Assembly: GCA_020072845.1 (NCBI GenBank)
Contig: JAIQGF010000003.1
Coordinates: 124,001 to 188,000 of the forward strand
Direction of reading: 5' to 3'
Length of the DNA: 64,000 nt
DNA from: Terriglobia bacterium
Lineage (GTDB): Bacteria > Acidobacteriota > Terriglobia > Terriglobales > Acidobacteriaceae
Under the pieces are notes generated by a model. It was not told the DNA's origin. It ran no database searches and saw nothing but the letters and a program-made list of their open reading frames with translations. The translations under genes and the position numbers were made by a program. This document shows, piece by piece, positions 13,751 through 20,808 of this stretch (positions are counted from its first letter, which is position 1; every line of letters begins with the position of its first letter).

Positions 13751-15421
13751 ATGCCTACTGGAAAGCTCCATGTCGTGCCGCTGGGCGGACTCGGCGAGTT
13801 CGGAATGAACTGCATGGCCGTGCGCTGGGGCGACGACATCATCGTCATTGACGCCGGCCTGATGTTCCCCGAGACGGAATTGCTCGGGGTCGACATCGTT
13901 GTTCCCGACATCGCCTACCTGATCGAGAACCGCAAGCACGTGCGTGCGATCGTGCTGACGCACGGCCACGAGGACCACATCGGCGCGTTGCCGTGGATCC
14001 TGGCGGAGCTGAACGTGCCGGTGTACGGCACCGAGTTCACGCTGGCGTACGTGGAGGACAAGCTCGACGAGCACGAGCTTTTGGACAACGCGACTCTGAT
14101 CGAGATGCGTCCCGGCGAGATGGTCACCATCGGGCCGTTCAAGATCAAGCCGATCCACGTGACGCACTCGCTGGTGGACTGCGTTTCGCTGGCCATCCAC
14201 ACGCCGCTGGGCGTGATCATCCACACCGGCGATTTCAAGGTCGATCCCACGCCCACCGACAACAAGCTGTTCGACCTGCATACCTTCGCGGAGTACGGCA
14301 AAGAAGGCGTGCTGGCGCTGTTCCAGGATTCGACCAACGTCGAGCGCACCGGGTACACGCCGAGCGAACGGGCGGTGGGGCGCAAGTTTGACGAGGTGTT
14401 CGCGCGCACGCCGCGGCGGCTGTTCATTTCGTGTTTTTCTTCCTCCATCCACCGCATCAAGCTGGCGATTGACATGGCGTACCAGCACCGGCGCAAGGTG
14501 GCGCTGGTGGGGCGCAGCATGAACGACTCCACCGAGATCGCGCAGGATCTCGGATACATCGAAGTGCCGGACGGGCTGCTGATTCATCCCGGGGAGATCA
14601 AGAATTTCCCGCCGGAGCGGGTGATGGTGCTGATCAGCGGAACCCAGGGCGAACCGATGTCGGGACTGTCGCGCGCGGCGGTGGACAATCACAAACACGC
14701 GAAAATCGAGCCAGGTGACACCGTGGTGCTGTCGTCGCGCATCATTCCGGGAAACGAAAAGTCCATCTACCGGATGATCGATCACCTGTACCGGCGCGGC
14801 GCCAACGTGATTTACGAGGACGGATCGCATCCCCCGGTGCACGTCAGCGGGCACGCCAGCCAGGAGGAGCTGAAGCTGCTCATCAACCTGGTGAAGCCGC
14901 GGTATTTCATTCCCATCCACGGCGAGTACCGGCAACTGAAGCGGCACGCGGATTTGGCGGGCAGCATGCTGGGCGCGGTCGGATCGGTAATGATGATCGA
15001 GAGCGGCGACGTGCTGGAATTCGACGAACTGGGCGCGCGCAAGGCCGGGCGCGTCGCGGTGGGGCGGGTGTGCATTGATTCGGGATCGCGCGGCGACGTG
15101 GTGGAAGACCTCATCATCAAAGACCGGCGGCATCTCAGCGAGGACGGGATCGTGCTGCCCATCATCGCCATCAACAAGCTGACGGGGCAGATCGAGTCGG
15201 CGCCGGAGATCGTAATGCGCGGCTTCGCGGCGGCGGGCGCCGACAACGGTCTGATGGCCGAAGCACGCCAGATCATCATGGACACGCTGGAGCAATCGAC
15301 CGAGGAAGAGAAGCGCGATTGGGGCGTGATCAAGGAAAAGATCCGGCAGGACCTGAAGCGGTTCATCGTGAAGAGCACGTCACGGCGGCCGCTGATCATG
15401 CCGGTCATCCTGGAGATTTGA
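13751..15421 (+). CDS. rnj: Ribonuclease J
   Basis: RNase J is a metallo-beta-lactamase-fold ribonuclease with 5'-exonuclease and endonuclease activities, central to mRNA decay and rRNA maturation. The HxHxDH motif is at residues 71-76 (HGHEDH), preceded by the N-terminal LGGLGEFGMN signature. The beta-CASP motifs follow (SCFSSSIHRIKLAIDMA; ISGTQGEPMSGLSR) and then the HVSGHAS and IPIHGEYRQL elements. Length 556 is standard. It is upstream of, but separated by about 300 bp and a dedicated promoter from, the threonine operon. Confidence 0.96.
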   Translation: MPTGKLHVVPLGGLGEFGMNCMAVRWGDDIIVIDAGLMFPETELLGVDIVVPDIAYLIENRKHVRAIVLTHGHEDHIGALPWILAELNVPVYGTEFTLAYVEDKLDEHELLDNATLIEMRPGEMVTIGPFKIKPIHVTHSLVDCVSLAIHTPLGVIIHTGDFKVDPTPTDNKLFDLHTFAEYGKEGVLALFQDSTNVERTGYTPSERAVGRKFDEVFARTPRRLFISCFSSSIHRIKLAIDMAYQHRRKVALVGRSMNDSTEIAQDLGYIEVPDGLLIHPGEIKNFPPERVMVLISGTQGEPMSGLSRAAVDNHKHAKIEPGDTVVLSSRIIPGNEKSIYRMIDHLYRRGANVIYEDGSHPPVHVSGHASQEELKLLINLVKPRYFIPIHGEYRQLKRHADLAGSMLGAVGSVMMIESGDVLEFDELGARKAGRVAVGRVCIDSGSRGDVVEDLIIKDRRHLSEDGIVLPIIAINKLTGQIESAPEIVMRGFAAAGADNGLMAEARQIIMDTLEQSTEEEKRDWGVIKEKIRQDLKRFIVKSTSRRPLIMPVILEI

Positions 15422-15464
15422 GGGTAACCGACGGGCGATGACCTCTTGTACTGCTGGTTTGCGA

Positions 15465-15492
15465 TTGACAGACGAAGTTGAACAACGATACT
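15465..15492 (+). promoter_or_regulatory. Candidate promoter of the thr operon leader
   Basis: A perfect -35 box TTGACA (15465-15470), 16-bp spacer and -10-like GATACT (15487-15492). Transcription would begin near 15499, leaving a short leader before the TTG of the leader peptide at 15516. Confidence 0.55.
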
Positions 15493-15515
15493 GTGAACAA
15501 ATACTGGACGTTGAT

Positions 15516-15632
15516 TTGAACCGCACTTTGCTAATCCGCCTGGTTGGTCCGACGCAAGCGCCGGAATTCGGGCTCGTCCGCGCGACATCAACGATTACAA
15601 CAACAACTATTACAGGAGCGCACGGCGGATGA
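15516..15632 (+). CDS. thrL: Thr/Ile-rich leader peptide of the thr operon attenuator
   Basis: A short frame ending at TGA (15630-15632) contains ten consecutive codons, 15585-15614, encoding T-S-T-I-T-T-T-T-I-T: seven Thr, two Ile and one Ser. Enterobacterial ThrL carries the same kind of run (STTITTTITITTG) and also ends in a Gly-rich tail, as here (GAHGG). Both amino acids are products of the pathway encoded downstream. With the promoter at 15465-15492, the likely start is TTG at 15516 (38 residues); an ATG at 15438 in the same frame would precede the promoter. The start codon is uncertain; the Thr/Ile run is not. Confidence 0.8.
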   Translation: MNRTLLIRLVGPTQAPEFGLVRATSTITTTTITGAHGG

Positions 15633-15673
15633 GGTAGTTCAGCCAGAATCAGGGTTTGAAAGCCACCTCCGCC
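15624..15673 (+). promoter_or_regulatory. Candidate antiterminator of the thr attenuator
   Basis: GGCG (15624-15627) and GAGGT (15631-15635) can pair with CGCC (15670-15673) and ACCTC (15665-15669), with a 3-nt bulge. The left arm overlaps the leader stop codon; the right arm overlaps the left arm of the terminator stem. A ribosome stalled at the Thr codons would leave this arm free, favouring read-through; a ribosome reaching the stop would cover it. Confidence 0.6.
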
Positions 15674-15697
15674 GCCGGCGCAGGTGGCTTTTCTGTT
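15659..15697 (+). terminator. Attenuator terminator before lysC
   Basis: Perfect 10-bp stem AAAGCCACCT (15659-15668) / AGGTGGCTTT (15682-15691) with a 13-nt G/C-rich loop, running into TTTTCTGTTCTT. It stands between the leader peptide and lysC, so it would abort transcription of the biosynthetic genes rather than end rnj alone. Confidence 0.85.
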
Positions 15698-15727
15698 CTT
15701 GCACACTTTTGAGAAACGGGGAAGGCG

Positions 15728-17197
15728 ATGAGTTCGTTAGTGATGAAATTCGGAGGGACCTCGGTCGGGTCGGCGGAAAGAATTCGGCAGTCGGCGCACA
15801 TCGTCCGTGACGAGCGCGGTAAGCATTCCGTGGTAGTCGTGGTTTCGGCGCTGAGCGGGATCACCGACTTGATCATTGAGACTGTAAATGCGGCTTGCGC
15901 CGGGGATCGCGACAGCTCGGAGGCAAGACTCGAACGCATTGAGCGCCGCCACCGCGAGGTGGTCGAGGAACTATTTGGCGGCGACAGGCGCGCAATGGTC
16001 ATGGCCGCGATTGGGGAAGTGCTGCGGGAACTGCGGGAGGTGTGCGGCGCACTCCTCATGCTGCGGGCGGCCACGCCGCAGGTGCTGGATGTTGCGCTGG
16101 CGATGGGAGAACGGATGTCGGCGCCGATCTTTGCCGCACAACTCTGCGAACTCGGAATGGATGGGCGACCGTTCGACTCGATCCGTCTCCTGATTACCAA
16201 TGACAATTTCGGGGAAGCCAGTCCCGACATGGAGGCGACGACTCACCTCAGCCGCGAATGTCTTCTGCCCGTCTTGCGCGAAGGCGCCGTGCCCGTCGTC
16301 ACGGGTTACCGCGGTGGGACGGCCGCCGGGCAGCCGACGACGCTGGGCCGCGGAGGGTCGGATTACTCGGCCACGATCCTGGGCGCGGCGCTGAGCTGCG
16401 ACGAGATTTGGATCTGGACCGACGTGGACGGCGTCATGAGCGCCGACCCGCGCATCTGCCCCGGCGCCGCCATTCTGCCGGAGATCACCTTCGCCGAAGC
16501 GATCGAGATGTCGTACTACGGCGCGAAAGTGATCCACCGCAAAGCGGTTCGCCCGGCGTTGGAGCACGGGATCCCCGTACTGATCAAGAACTCGTTTTGC
16601 CGCCAGGTCGAGGGAACGCGGATCGCTGCCCAGACGCAAGGGAACGGGCACGTGGTGAAGGCGGTCACGTCGGTCAGTCCGGCGGCATTGATCACGTTGA
16701 ACATGCCCAATGGAGGCCACTTCGAGGACCTGTTCGGGCGGCTGTTCCTGGGGCTGGGACACGAGCGCATCGACGTACTATTCTCGACGCAGTCGTCTTC
16801 GGAAAACGCCATCGGCCTGGTATTTCGCGAGCACGATCTGGAACGCGCGTTGACCGTGACCGAGCGGGTGTTCCGCACCGAGATCAAGCACAGCATGATG
16901 GCGCCGATCGCGGTACAGCGCGATGTGGCGGTGATCGCGGTGTTGGGAGAGACGATGAAGGGCAAAGTCGGCGTGCTGGCGCGCTTGTTTACTGCCGTGG
17001 CGCGCTGCCGGGTCAGCGTGATTGCGGTGGCGCAGGGCGCCAGCGAAATCAATATTTGCTTCGCGGTGACAGCGGCTTCTGCGCCGGTGGTGATCCGCGC
17101 CGTGCACGATGAATTTCTGGGCGCAGCGGGGCAGCCATTTCACGCCTACGAATCCGGAGATGACGATGAACAGACCCATGCCAGCCGCTGCTGCTGA
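15728..17197 (+). CDS. lysC: Aspartate kinase
   Basis: Aspartate kinase phosphorylates aspartate, the first step towards threonine, lysine, methionine and isoleucine. The N-terminal KFGGTSVGS (residues 7-15) and GRGGSDYSA...WTDVDGVMSADP motifs define the amino-acid-kinase domain. The C-terminal region (from about residue 310) holds two ACT-type regulatory repeats (HERIDVLFSTQSSSENAIGLVF and VGVLARLFTAVARCRVSVIAVAQGASEINI). These usually bind lysine or threonine; position first in a threonine operon suggests threonine control. GGGGAAGG precedes the ATG. The last 32 bp overlap thrC. Confidence 0.94.
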   Translation: MSSLVMKFGGTSVGSAERIRQSAHIVRDERGKHSVVVVVSALSGITDLIIETVNAACAGDRDSSEARLERIERRHREVVEELFGGDRRAMVMAAIGEVLRELREVCGALLMLRAATPQVLDVALAMGERMSAPIFAAQLCELGMDGRPFDSIRLLITNDNFGEASPDMEATTHLSRECLLPVLREGAVPVVTGYRGGTAAGQPTTLGRGGSDYSATILGAALSCDEIWIWTDVDGVMSADPRICPGAAILPEITFAEAIEMSYYGAKVIHRKAVRPALEHGIPVLIKNSFCRQVEGTRIAAQTQGNGHVVKAVTSVSPAALITLNMPNGGHFEDLFGRLFLGLGHERIDVLFSTQSSSENAIGLVFREHDLERALTVTERVFRTEIKHSMMAPIAVQRDVAVIAVLGETMKGKVGVLARLFTAVARCRVSVIAVAQGASEINICFAVTAASAPVVIRAVHDEFLGAAGQPFHAYESGDDDEQTHASRCC

Positions 17198-18539
17198 GGG
17201 GAGCGCCGAAGCGCAACTGCGGTGTTGCGGCTGCCAAGCGATTCAGGATGACCCGCAGCCGGATTTCCGATGCGCCCAATGCGGCGAGCTGCTGGAAGTG
17301 ATTTATCCGGCATGGGAATCGGACGCGGGTCGTCCTTCTGCGGAAGGATTCAAGACGAAGTGGCGCGAACGAAAACTTTCCGGCTCCCAGGTGGACCGTA
17401 GCGGAGTCTGGCGTTTCAGGGAGTTGCTGCCAATTGTTCAAGCGCTGGATGAGGTAGTCACGCTGGCGGAGGGCAATACGCCGCTGTATGCGATGCCGCA
17501 AACGGCGCGCCGGCTGGGAATGCGGGCGCTGCTGGCGAAGCACCAGGGCATGAATCCGACGGGCTCTTTCAAGGACACAGGGATGACGGCGGCGGTATCG
17601 GTGGCGCACGCGCGGGGGTACCAGTGGGTGGTGTGCGCGTCGACGGGCAACACGTCGGCGTCGATGGCGGCGTATGCGGCGCGCGCCGGGCTGAAGGCCC
17701 TGGTGCTGCTGCCGGAAGGACAGATTGCGTGGGGAAAATTGTCGCAGGCGGTGGAATACGGCGCGGTCACGCTGCAACTGCGGACGGACTTCGACGGATG
17801 CTTGCGGGTGGCGATGGAGCTGGTGCGCAAGATGCCAATGTACATGCTGAACTCGATCAATCCGTACCGCATTGAAGGGCAGAAAACCGCGGCGATCGAA
17901 CTGATGGAGCAACTGGATTGGAACCCGCCGGAGCACATCATTGTGCCCGGCGGCAATTTGGGGAATTCTTCCGCGCTGGGCAAAGGACTGCTGGAGATGC
18001 ACCGGCTGGGGCTGATCGCGCGGCTGCCGAAGCTTTCCGTCGTTCAAGCCAAGGGCGCCAATCCGCTGTACACGGCGGTCCACGAGCACGGTGGCCGCAG
18101 TCTTGTGCCGGTGAAGGCGGAGACGATGGCAACCGCGATCCGCATTGGAAACCCCGTGTCGTGGCGAAAAGCGATACGGGTGCTGGAGGCAACCGGCGGA
18201 ACCTGCGAGCAGGTGAGCGAAGAAGAAATTGCGTTGGCGAAGGCGGAGATCGGCGCCGAAGGGCTGGGTTGCGAACCGGCATCGGCGGTCACGCTGGCGG
18301 GGCTGAAGAAACTGCTGCGCAGCGGGTTCGTCGCTGCCGATGAAAAAGTGGTGCTGGTGCTCACCGGCCATGTTCTCAAGGATCCCGACTACATCATGAA
18401 ATTCCACGCGGGAGAGTTGTTGGAGCGCGCTACCGAGCTGGGGAGCGAACTGGATCGCCGGCGCCGTCCTCCGATTCAGGTCGAGGCGGAATTGGAGAAA
18501 GTCATGGCGGTGCTGGAGAAGTTGCAGGGGGACGCATGA
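17166..18539 (+). CDS. thrC: Threonine synthase
   Basis: Threonine synthase converts O-phosphohomoserine to threonine. From the ATG at 17166 (GGAG upstream) the protein is 457 residues. A Cys-rich N-terminal motif (C20, C21, C23, then FRCAQC near 34-39) resembles the zinc-ribbon of the archaeal/plant-type group. The PLP lysine is K136 in NPTGSFKDTG; ASTGNTSASMAAYAA and IIVPGGNLGNSSALGKG are the phosphate-binding loops. It overlaps lysC upstream and thrB downstream (ATGA at 18536), so the three are translationally coupled. Confidence 0.94.
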   Translation: MNRPMPAAAAEGSAEAQLRCCGCQAIQDDPQPDFRCAQCGELLEVIYPAWESDAGRPSAEGFKTKWRERKLSGSQVDRSGVWRFRELLPIVQALDEVVTLAEGNTPLYAMPQTARRLGMRALLAKHQGMNPTGSFKDTGMTAAVSVAHARGYQWVVCASTGNTSASMAAYAARAGLKALVLLPEGQIAWGKLSQAVEYGAVTLQLRTDFDGCLRVAMELVRKMPMYMLNSINPYRIEGQKTAAIELMEQLDWNPPEHIIVPGGNLGNSSALGKGLLEMHRLGLIARLPKLSVVQAKGANPLYTAVHEHGGRSLVPVKAETMATAIRIGNPVSWRKAIRVLEATGGTCEQVSEEEIALAKAEIGAEGLGCEPASAVTLAGLKKLLRSGFVAADEKVVLVLTGHVLKDPDYIMKFHAGELLERATELGSELDRRRRPPIQVEAELEKVMAVLEKLQGDA

Positions 18540-19519
18540 GTGCGGCTGGCAGCAACCATGATCGCAGCTTGCGCGGGATCGAGCTGAAGCTGCCGGCGAG
18601 CTCGGCGAACCTGGGTCCGGCTTTCGATTCGGCGGCGATGGCCCTGGATCTCTACCTGCGCGTGCGGGCCGAGGCGGCGGCGTCATTTTCGGTGACCGCG
18701 AGCGGACGTGATGCGGACGTGTGTGGCAAGGTCGAGCACAACTTGATCCTGGACTCCTATCGCGAGGTGCTGAACAACGCGAAGGCGCCCTGTGCGCCGC
18801 TGGCGCTGAGAATCGACAACCAGATTCCGGTGGGGAAAGGCTGCGGGTCCTCCGCCGCGGCGCGGTTGGCGGGGGTGGCGCTGGCGGTCCACTTCGGCGG
18901 ACTGGCGTGGACGGACGAGCAGATTCTCGACGAAGCGGTCCGCCTCGAGGGCCACGCCGACAATGTGGCTGCGTGCTGGCTGGGCGGGTTCGTGATCGTG
19001 CAGGCCAATCGAAACGACCGCGGGAAGCGCGTGCAGGCGAGCCGGATTGAGGTTGCCCGCGAGCGGCCGATGCTCTTGGTTCTTTCCGGCGACGACCTGG
19101 CTACGGGAAAGTCGCGCGCGTTGGTGCCGACGCTGTACGGCCGGGAAGTGGTGGTTGCCAATCTGCAAAGCGCCATGGCACTGGTGGCGGCGCATGTGCT
19201 CGGGCGCGACGAATTGTTCAGCACGGCGCAGCACGACGCGCTTCATCAGCCGTATCGCGCGAAAGTGTGCCCGCTGCTGCCGTGCTTGCAACCGCTGGCG
19301 GGGCAGGCCGGAATCCTGGCGGTGACGCTGAGCGGCGCGGGAAGTTCGGTGCTGCTCACCTTGCGGCATGATGCGTCGCAGCCCGAGGTAGGCGACGCGG
19401 TCTCGGAGCGGCTGCGCGCCGCGGGCCTTGCAGGCGAATTGGTTTTCACCAAGATGGCGAAGCAGGGTACTTGCCGGACCCAACTGCCGGCACGGGCCAT
19501 GGCCGGGGAGGGTGTGTGA
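18536..19519 (+). CDS. thrB: Homoserine kinase
   Basis: A GHMP-family kinase of 327 residues that phosphorylates homoserine to supply threonine synthase. The ATP-binding GHMP motif is PVGKGCGSSAAA at residues 99-110; PASSANLGPAFDSAAMAL near the N-terminus is the substrate-binding motif, and VTLSGAGSSVL is GHMP motif 3. Start ATG overlaps the thrC stop; its own stop overlaps the GTG of hom. Confidence 0.94.
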   Translation: MSAAGSNHDRSLRGIELKLPASSANLGPAFDSAAMALDLYLRVRAEAAASFSVTASGRDADVCGKVEHNLILDSYREVLNNAKAPCAPLALRIDNQIPVGKGCGSSAAARLAGVALAVHFGGLAWTDEQILDEAVRLEGHADNVAACWLGGFVIVQANRNDRGKRVQASRIEVARERPMLLVLSGDDLATGKSRALVPTLYGREVVVANLQSAMALVAAHVLGRDELFSTAQHDALHQPYRAKVCPLLPCLQPLAGQAGILAVTLSGAGSSVLLTLRHDASQPEVGDAVSERLRAAGLAGELVFTKMAKQGTCRTQLPARAMAGEGV

Positions 19520-20808
19520 AGGAAGTCAGGGTAGGAATCGTCGGGTTTGGCACGGTCGGGCAGGCGACGGCGCAGTTGCTGGCGGCCAACGCCGATCTCA
19601 TCGAGGAGCGCAGTGGAGTGCGGCTGGCGGTTACGGTGGTGTGCCGCCGAACGCCAATCCCTGCCGAATTAATTCCAGCGGGGGCGCGCGCCTGTGCGTC
19701 GTGGACCGACGTGGTGTCCGCGCCGGATGTCGATGTGGTGGTGGAAACCATCGGCGGCAACGGCATTCCCCGCGAGGTCGTCAACCGGGCTTTGATTTCA
19801 GGAAAGCCGGTAGTGACGGCGAACAAAGCGCTGATCGCCAAGTACGGCGACGAGATCCTGGCACACGCTTGCGAGCGCCGCCTGCCGGTTGGAATCGAGG
19901 CGACGACGGCGGGAGGAATCCCGATTGTGCGCGCGCTGCGCCGCTCGGCCACCAGCGATCAAGTGATCAAGATATACGGAGTGCTGAACGGCACGGTGAA
20001 CTACATCCTGAGCCGCATGGAAACGGAAGGCCTGGAGTTCCAGGCAGCGCTGACAGCGGCACAGCAGGCCGGCTACGCCGAAGCGGACCCGAGTCTCGAC
20101 ATTGATGGCATTGATGCGCGCGACAAGCTGTGCATCCTGGCAAGGATGGCCTTCAATCTGCGGCTGCATCCGGAAGACATCCCGGTCACCGGCGTGCGGC
20201 AAGTTTCACAGGTGGACCTACAATATGCACGGCGCCTGGGCGGGCGCATTCGGCTGGTGGGAGCAGCGGAACACCAGGACGATGGAATTGCGGTCACGGT
20301 ACGGCCGTGGCTGGTGCCGCAAAATTCCATGCTCGGCAAAGTGGAAGGCGTGTTCAACGCCATCTTCGTGGAAGGCGAGCGCAGCGGCACACAGATGTTC
20401 TATGGCCGCGGCGCGGGAGGGCCGGCGACCAGCACCGCGGTGGTGGCGGACCTGATCGGGATTGCGCAGGGAATGGCGTCGAAAACTCCGGGACGCAACC
20501 CGATGCCCGGCTTCGGGCCGATCTCGGCGCTTCCCCTGACGACCTCCGGAACCTCGTGCGAGTGGTATCTCCGGCTGAGCGTGCGCGACCATCCCGGCAT
20601 TTTGGCGCGGGTGGCCTCCGTACTTGCAGAGTTGGAGATCAACATTGATTCGGTGCTGCAGGAGCCGCACTTGCCGAAGGAGCGGCTGTCGTTTGTGATC
20701 ACCGTGGAAACCGTGTCGGAGCGCACCATCAGGATGGCGATTGAGCGCATCAACCAGTTCGAATTCCTCACCGAACCGGCATTGCTGGTGCGCATGTTCG
20801 CGGGCTAG
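19516..20808 (+). CDS. hom: Homoserine dehydrogenase
   Basis: This NAD(P)-dependent enzyme reduces aspartate semialdehyde to homoserine. The GTG at 19516 has GGGGAGG just upstream and overlaps the thrB stop (GTGA). The 430-residue product has VGIVGFGTVGQATAQLL as its Rossmann motif, VVTANKALI and GIEATTAGGIPIVRALR in the catalytic region, and a C-terminal ACT domain (about 350-425, WYLRLSVRDHPGILARVASVL), a typical threonine-feedback site. It completes lysC-thrC-thrB-hom; aspartate-semialdehyde dehydrogenase is missing from the operon. Confidence 0.95.
   Translation: MKEVRVGIVGFGTVGQATAQLLAANADLIEERSGVRLAVTVVCRRTPIPAELIPAGARACASWTDVVSAPDVDVVVETIGGNGIPREVVNRALISGKPVVTANKALIAKYGDEILAHACERRLPVGIEATTAGGIPIVRALRRSATSDQVIKIYGVLNGTVNYILSRMETEGLEFQAALTAAQQAGYAEADPSLDIDGIDARDKLCILARMAFNLRLHPEDIPVTGVRQVSQVDLQYARRLGGRIRLVGAAEHQDDGIAVTVRPWLVPQNSMLGKVEGVFNAIFVEGERSGTQMFYGRGAGGPATSTAVVADLIGIAQGMASKTPGRNPMPGFGPISALPLTTSGTSCEWYLRLSVRDHPGILARVASVLAELEINIDSVLQEPHLPKERLSFVITVETVSERTIRMAIERINQFEFLTEPALLVRMFAG

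Follow-up and report, generated by a model that had tools for sequence, protein, structure and literature searches.

The window, the whole 64,000-nt stretch of DNA analysed here, comes from a member of the Terriglobia (Acidobacteriota). On its forward strand it carries a gene for an RNase J family protein (rnj, 13751-15421; NCBIfam TIGR00649, 569.5 bits, cut-off 400; 95% identical to its counterpart in G003, a genome of the same genus), followed by a presumed attenuator region and then by a threonine operon of the order lysC-thrC-thrB-hom. NCBIfam profiles identify the four genes as those for aspartate kinase (lysC, 15728-17197; TIGR00657, 365.5 bits, cut-off 208.7), threonine synthase (thrC, 17109-18539; TIGR00260, 275.6 bits, cut-off 167.1), homoserine kinase (thrB, 18536-19519; TIGR00191, 183.8 bits, cut-off 168.25) and homoserine dehydrogenase (hom, 19471-20808; NF004976, 433.6 bits, cut-off 205), all on the same strand. 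The thrC coordinates are those of the longest ORF, whose actual start may lie further 3′; this ORF overlaps lysC by 89 nt (17109-17197), and between the G003 matches the overlap is 83 nt. Second aspartate kinase genes, present in both the window's own genome (G000) and G003, have no leader.

A promoter (15465-15492, + strand) lies between rnj and lysC. The TTGACA hexamer that an earlier note on this DNA had pointed out is found at 15465-15470, separated by a 16-nt spacer from a GATACT -10 box at 15487-15492 (alternative -10 box TACTGT, 15489-15494). The promoter score is matched by 3 of 300 mononucleotide shuffles, and both TTGACA and the -10 region are kept in G003. The leader reading frame is open from an ATG at 15438 through a TGA at 15630-15632 (64 aa). 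Because this ATG lies upstream of the promoter, the note's doubt about the leader start codon, which it had called the weakest part, was justified. Judging from the sequence, the candidate starts are a CTG at 15504 and a TTG at 15516. The putative TTG start defines a leader peptide ORF at 15516-15632 (+ strand), reading MNRTLLIRLVGPTQAPEFGLVRATSTITTTTITGAHGG up to the stop codon. This TTG is common to the window and G003, with GGACG (window) or GGAAG (G003) just 5′ of it, and the stretch from TTG to stop is free of indels between the two genomes. The alternative CTG is aligned with an ATG that lies 10 nt past the best -10 box of G003.

Within the leader frame, ten codons at 15585-15614 (+ strand) read T-S-T-I-T-T-T-T-I-T, just as the note had it: seven Thr codons (five of them ACA), two Ile and one Ser. 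Six ten-codon stretches with at least seven Thr or Ile codons exist in the six frames of the 64 kb, and all of them overlap within this run. A short ORF enriched in codons for threonine, the product of the operon, is thus present, and an intrinsic terminator separates this ORF from the first gene. The terminator hairpin (15659-15691, + strand) combines the perfect 10-bp stem claimed previously (15659-15668/15682-15691) with a 1x1 mismatch and an inner 4-bp CGCC/GGCG stem, and leads into a T-rich tract (15688-15700). The segment 15655-15697 folds with -24.1 kcal/mol, 4.75 sd below shuffles. In the folding model, a candidate antiterminator joins a left arm overlapping the leader stop codon (15623-15635, + strand) to a right arm overlapping the left arm of the terminator (15665-15677, + strand) through the pairs 15623-15628/15672-15677 and 15631-15635/15665-15669 (-26.3 kcal/mol for 15613-15678). 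The arms are those proposed in the note, except that the right one extends four bases further. Over its full 230 nt the leader has ordinary stability (z -0.44); the stability signal resides in its downstream half (15580-15700, z -2.66).

Comparison with G003 shows that the leader frame, the Thr codons, the antiterminator and the terminator are retained despite many substitutions; neither structure is lost through these changes, nor through an indel in the arm that the two share. The search for more distant counterparts drew on LysC matches, found in all 61 of 61 genomes and, as close matches (alignment search, E≤1e-120), in 35 of 398 genomes of the family (the window's own genome included in both counts), and on threonine synthase matches, found in 114 of 140 family genomes and 103 of 121 genomes of the class. 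A total of 120 loci were read, 92 from the 113 other matching family genomes and 28 from other families of the class; some of them end at contig ends, and weak leaders may escape the scans. A Thr-rich leader followed by a terminator precedes the first operon gene at 16 of the 92 family thrC loci (L141, L205, L214, L216, L217, L220-L228, L231 and L232). The L231 leader is weak, with only three Thr and two Ile codons, and L141, missed by the terminator pattern of the scans, is counted from direct reading. All 16 leaders fall among the 22 family loci where lysC or hom adjoins thrC; none was detected at the other six (L148, L162, L204, L219, L229, L230). Window-type LysC adjoins thrC at nine loci, and at four of these (L148, L162, L204, L219) no leader stands directly ahead of lysC. 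Nor did the scans find a leader by thrC at the 70 other family loci, where lysC or hom was unrecognised next to thrC, or by the operon at the 28 loci from outside the family. Finally, among 17 further lysC loci (L014-L030, 12 from the family and 5 from outside it; L018 and L027 repeat G018 and G006), leaders were present in three family genomes (L014, L015, L019).

The genes behind the leader are arranged as lysC-thrC-thrB-hom, lysC-hom-thrC-thrB, hom-thrC-thrB or thrB-lysC-thrC-hom. The Thr-rich character of the leader is common to all these loci; outside close pairs the peptide sequence is not. In the view of the note, relatives lacking the codons or the hairpin would speak against an attenuator. 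Both are kept in G003 and have analogues in 16 of 22 comparable operons, but they are not universal. The suggestion that an acidobacterial case would be a distant or independent instance has to be amended: the element recurs across the family and does not stand alone. Two genomes of the window's own genus, G001 (L227) and G002 (L228), have a different threonine operon, hom-thrC-thrB, yet a Thr-rich leader is present there as well; compared with the window (15728-20808), their hom is approximately 40% and their thrC approximately 50% identical. The operon in the window and G003 may be a replacement that also has a Thr-rich leader.

A scan blind to gene positions then took in every terminator-like site on either strand of the 120 loci, 1151 in total, and scored Thr and Ile in 12-codon stretches of neighbouring ORFs. 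All eight sites with at least 7 of 12 Thr/Ile codons lie on the operon strand, 28-265 nt 5′ of lysC, hom or thrB. Three of the 14 sites with exactly six are so placed (L223, L224, L226) and 11 are elsewhere. Counts of at least seven were reached by the control pairs SL, AV, RG, AG, PR, LV and SP at 5 (LV) to 174 (PR) sites, site positions having been considered for Thr/Ile only; the high counts are what GC-rich composition leads one to expect.

Codon counts in 17 leaders (the window and the 16 thrC loci) were set against those in their operon genes. Thr is enriched 4.4-fold, Ile 1.6-fold and Ser 1.5-fold; the 4.0-fold enrichment of Met has most start codons counted in. The Thr codon ACA accounts for 80 of 110 leader Thr codons against 52 of 1019 in the operon genes (Fisher p 3e-61), and the Ile codon ATT for 26 of 44 against 385 of 1122 (p 0.001). 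Ile is absent from the L205 leader and occurs once in those of L214, L216 and L217. Threonine is therefore the common signal: the Thr/Ile sensing originally put forward holds across relatives for its Thr part, and not for Ile, which is missing or single in 4 of 17 leaders.

Two folding models were applied to the same 17 leaders. When the full-length transcript was folded at equilibrium under a ribosome mask, the window was predicted to flip from antiterminator to terminator with the ribosome inside the run, in line with the two mutually exclusive structures that the earlier note had proposed to look for by folding. L223 behaves likewise, five leaders switch partially (L141, L205, L216, L220, L231) and the other ten do not switch. 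Since the equilibrium switch is clear in the window and L223 alone, the mechanism has to work through folding while the RNA is still being made, and for the same reason a truncated, co-transcriptional model was used. Here the transcript is cut before the right arm of the terminator, 12 nt are covered from the A-site codon on, and pairing of the terminator left arm with upstream sequence is read out; the model is uncalibrated on a known attenuator, and antiterminator pairing was not a criterion in choosing the leaders. The mean modelled pairing probability is 0.78 with the ribosome in the Thr/Ile run and 0.07 with the ribosome at the stop codon (highest value 0.34, in L224), against 0.47 in dinucleotide shuffles. 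Every one of the 17 leaders shows more pairing with the ribosome in the run than with it at the stop. The observed pairing is reached by no more than 10 of 200 shuffles in 13 leaders and by 13-49 in L222, L223, L227 and L232 (the four counts being 13, 26, 27 and 49). As the leaders are non-independent, their combined p (7e-13) overstates the significance. In this model, antiterminator and terminator would thus exclude each other, with the position of the ribosome setting the choice.

The position of the leader start was surveyed in 20 acidobacterial leaders (the window, the 16 thrC loci, L014, L015 and L019). In 15 of them an in-frame ATG (TTG in L223) lies 8-14 nt past the best-scoring -10 box, although promoter scores for five of these (L224, L227, L232, L014, L015) have p values of 0.07-0.19. 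The exceptions are the window, which has CTG at the position where most relatives start, and L226, L228, L231 and L019; promoter scores in the last four are no better than shuffles. Given that the distance from the -10 hexamer to the start averages 6.3 nt in Streptomyces lividans, according to the available text of PMC8079986, the spacing suggests that the leader mRNA of most relatives may be nearly leaderless.

The same leader might control translation of lysC instead of transcription termination. Only 95 nt separate the leader stop codon from the lysC start, a distance compatible with such control; however, 36 nt lie between the end of the hairpin (15691) and that start, a T-rich tract follows the hairpin, and hairpins with T-rich tails occur in 17 of 17 leaders. 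We regard translational control as improbable.

Still less probable, and about equally so, are two explanations that deprive the Thr codons of their role. In one, the hairpin is a mere terminator for the co-directional rnj, which stops at 15421 and could be served by it, and the Thr run arose by chance. Against this stand the promoter lying between rnj and the hairpin, the recurrence of Thr-rich leader and terminator at threonine operons of other gene order, and the indel-free leader frame in G003. In the other, the Thr codons are bystanders of a different RNA sensor (a T-box, a riboswitch or the target of an RNA-binding protein), a hairpin followed by a terminator being a layout general to many attenuators. 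Yet at gathering score the window has no known riboswitch, no T-box and no other Rfam family, matches in the leader are far below threshold, and neither T-box nor amino-acid riboswitch, nor any other Rfam family, was found in the leaders of 10 scanned relatives; the ACA bias of the leaders, moreover, fits reading by a ribosome. The Rfam Thr_leader covariance model does not match the window's leader either, the four matches with E≤10 in 15400-15760 belonging to other families and being at chance level. An Acido-Lenti-1 RNA (RF01687) was noted near the threonine operon of one family member (L220:6727-6773, minus strand). That the frame, open as it is from 15438 to 15632, encodes a functional 64-aa small protein and no regulatory leader is hardly credible: the promoter sits within this ORF, G003 has an in-frame stop inside its -35 box, the 64-aa product has no NCBIfam match at E≤1, and beyond close pairs relatives share Thr-richness rather than peptide sequence.

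We conclude that the element in the window is very probably a ribosome-mediated transcription attenuator of the threonine operon. In the cell, RNA polymerase would start at about 15499 and a ribosome would set out to translate the leader ORF. Under a shortage of Thr-tRNA (in the window also of Ile-tRNA), this ribosome would stall in 15585-15614, leaving 15623-15635 free to pair with the emerging 15665-15677; this pairing would block the terminator and allow lysC-thrC-thrB-hom to be transcribed. When threonine is plentiful, the ribosome would reach the stop codon at 15630-15632 and cover the left arm of the antiterminator, and the 15659-15691 hairpin would terminate transcription. The thrL-like logic read from the sequence at the outset gains support accordingly: all elements are in place, they recur in relatives and, in the folding model, they are predicted to switch.

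In the family, scans of approximately 800 nt upstream of ilvB (22 loci) and hisD (24 loci) revealed no clear leader with terminator; as only this interval upstream of the genes was covered, operon starts may have been missed. At L264, a short ORF 5′ of ilvB has six Ile/Val/Leu codons in 12 and is accompanied by a terminator-like hairpin (-14.5), an ambiguous combination that may represent either a weak ilv leader or a coincidence; L263, with five Ile/Val/Leu codons of 12, is ambiguous as well.

Outside the phylum, Met/Thr-rich leaders (for example MTMTTTTSGT) with terminators precede lysC at 8 of 28 loci grouped by eye as Chloroflexota from their titles (L051, L056, L065, L066, L072, L073, L074, L083). 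L063 is a possible ninth, kept out of the pairing and codon counts. Modelled antiterminator pairing at the Thr codons exceeds both that at the stop codon and the mean of 100 mononucleotide shuffles in seven of the eight; 0-5 shuffles are as high in six leaders and 15 in L083, and L073 fails the test (75 of 100 as high). The start lies 8-11 nt past the -10 box in six of eight. Leader Thr codons are ACC (24), ACT (16), ACA (4) and ACG (2); being mostly ACC and ACT, they show that these leaders do not have the ACA bias. Two of these loci also contain SAM riboswitches (RF00162; L056:8724-8839 and L066:8682-8804), approximately 1.3 kb downstream of the lysC with the Met/Thr leader.

The best-known ribosome-stalling threonine attenuator is the thrL switch of E. 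coli, where the operon order is thrABC; we take it to be the Thr_leader of Rfam (RF00506). The window resembles it in having a Thr/Ile-rich leader peptide and mutually exclusive antiterminator and terminator 5′ of a threonine biosynthesis operon. It differs in operon structure (lysC-thrC-thrB-hom as opposed to thrABC) and in lacking an Rfam match, and the start at 8-14 nt past the -10 box in 15 of 20 acidobacterial leaders is a further difference from E. coli. Codon choice also differs: acidobacterial leaders use mostly ACA, which is rare in their operon genes, while the E. coli thr leader has eight ACC codons, ACC being described as a major codon in the available part of PMC1183508.

Leader-peptide mRNAs that begin at or near their start codon are described, in the available text, for S. 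lividans (PMC8079986) and for Sinorhizobium meliloti trpL (PMC10117765), and the acidobacterial leaders would appear to be alike in this. The S. lividans leaders precede the Ala-, Leu-, Trp- and Thr-tRNA synthetase genes, ilv, leuA, trpE and metNIQ; the threonine operon is not among them in the portion of that paper available (PMC8079986). For Actinobacteria, PMC1262725, as far as its accessible text goes, saw no conserved RNA structure 5′ of threonine operons. Histidine leader peptides of Firmicutes (Naville and Gautheret 2010, in its available part) are a parallel for leader-peptide attenuation beyond Proteobacteria and Actinobacteria, the amino acid being histidine. Taken together, the accessible portions of these sources place leader-peptide attenuation in Proteobacteria, Actinobacteria and some Firmicutes, and also document leaderless leader peptides (PMC2965389, PMC1262725, PMC8079986, PMC10117765, PMC1183508). 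As of 2010, the phylum had almost no predicted attenuator with an assigned function in the text of PMC2965389 at hand, and short leader genes near genes of Acidobacteria are viewed, in the corresponding part of PMC4833913, as mostly unrelated to attenuation. A literature search, in the text open to it, returned no threonine attenuator described for Acidobacteria or Chloroflexi; an earlier prediction may be contained in the broad survey of Lopatovskaya et al. 2010.

The mechanism itself is classical; what appears new, and is well supported by sequence comparison, is its presence in phyla for which the literature searched describes no case. On balance, we favour the broader reading that threonine leader attenuation is recurrent in this family of Acidobacteriota (with Met/Thr leaders in Chloroflexota), that it works from nearly leaderless leader mRNAs and, in the acidobacteria, senses through the rare codon ACA, and that it arose, or moved between operons, independently of the gammaproteobacterial threonine attenuator. 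The findings would extend ribosome-mediated attenuation of a biosynthetic operon to the phylum Acidobacteriota. As the switch precedes differing gene orders within one family, the leader can be traced while the genes behind it change. Finally, the use of rare ACA, as against ACC in E. coli, would let a second lineage serve for testing the selective-charging theory of sensor codons.
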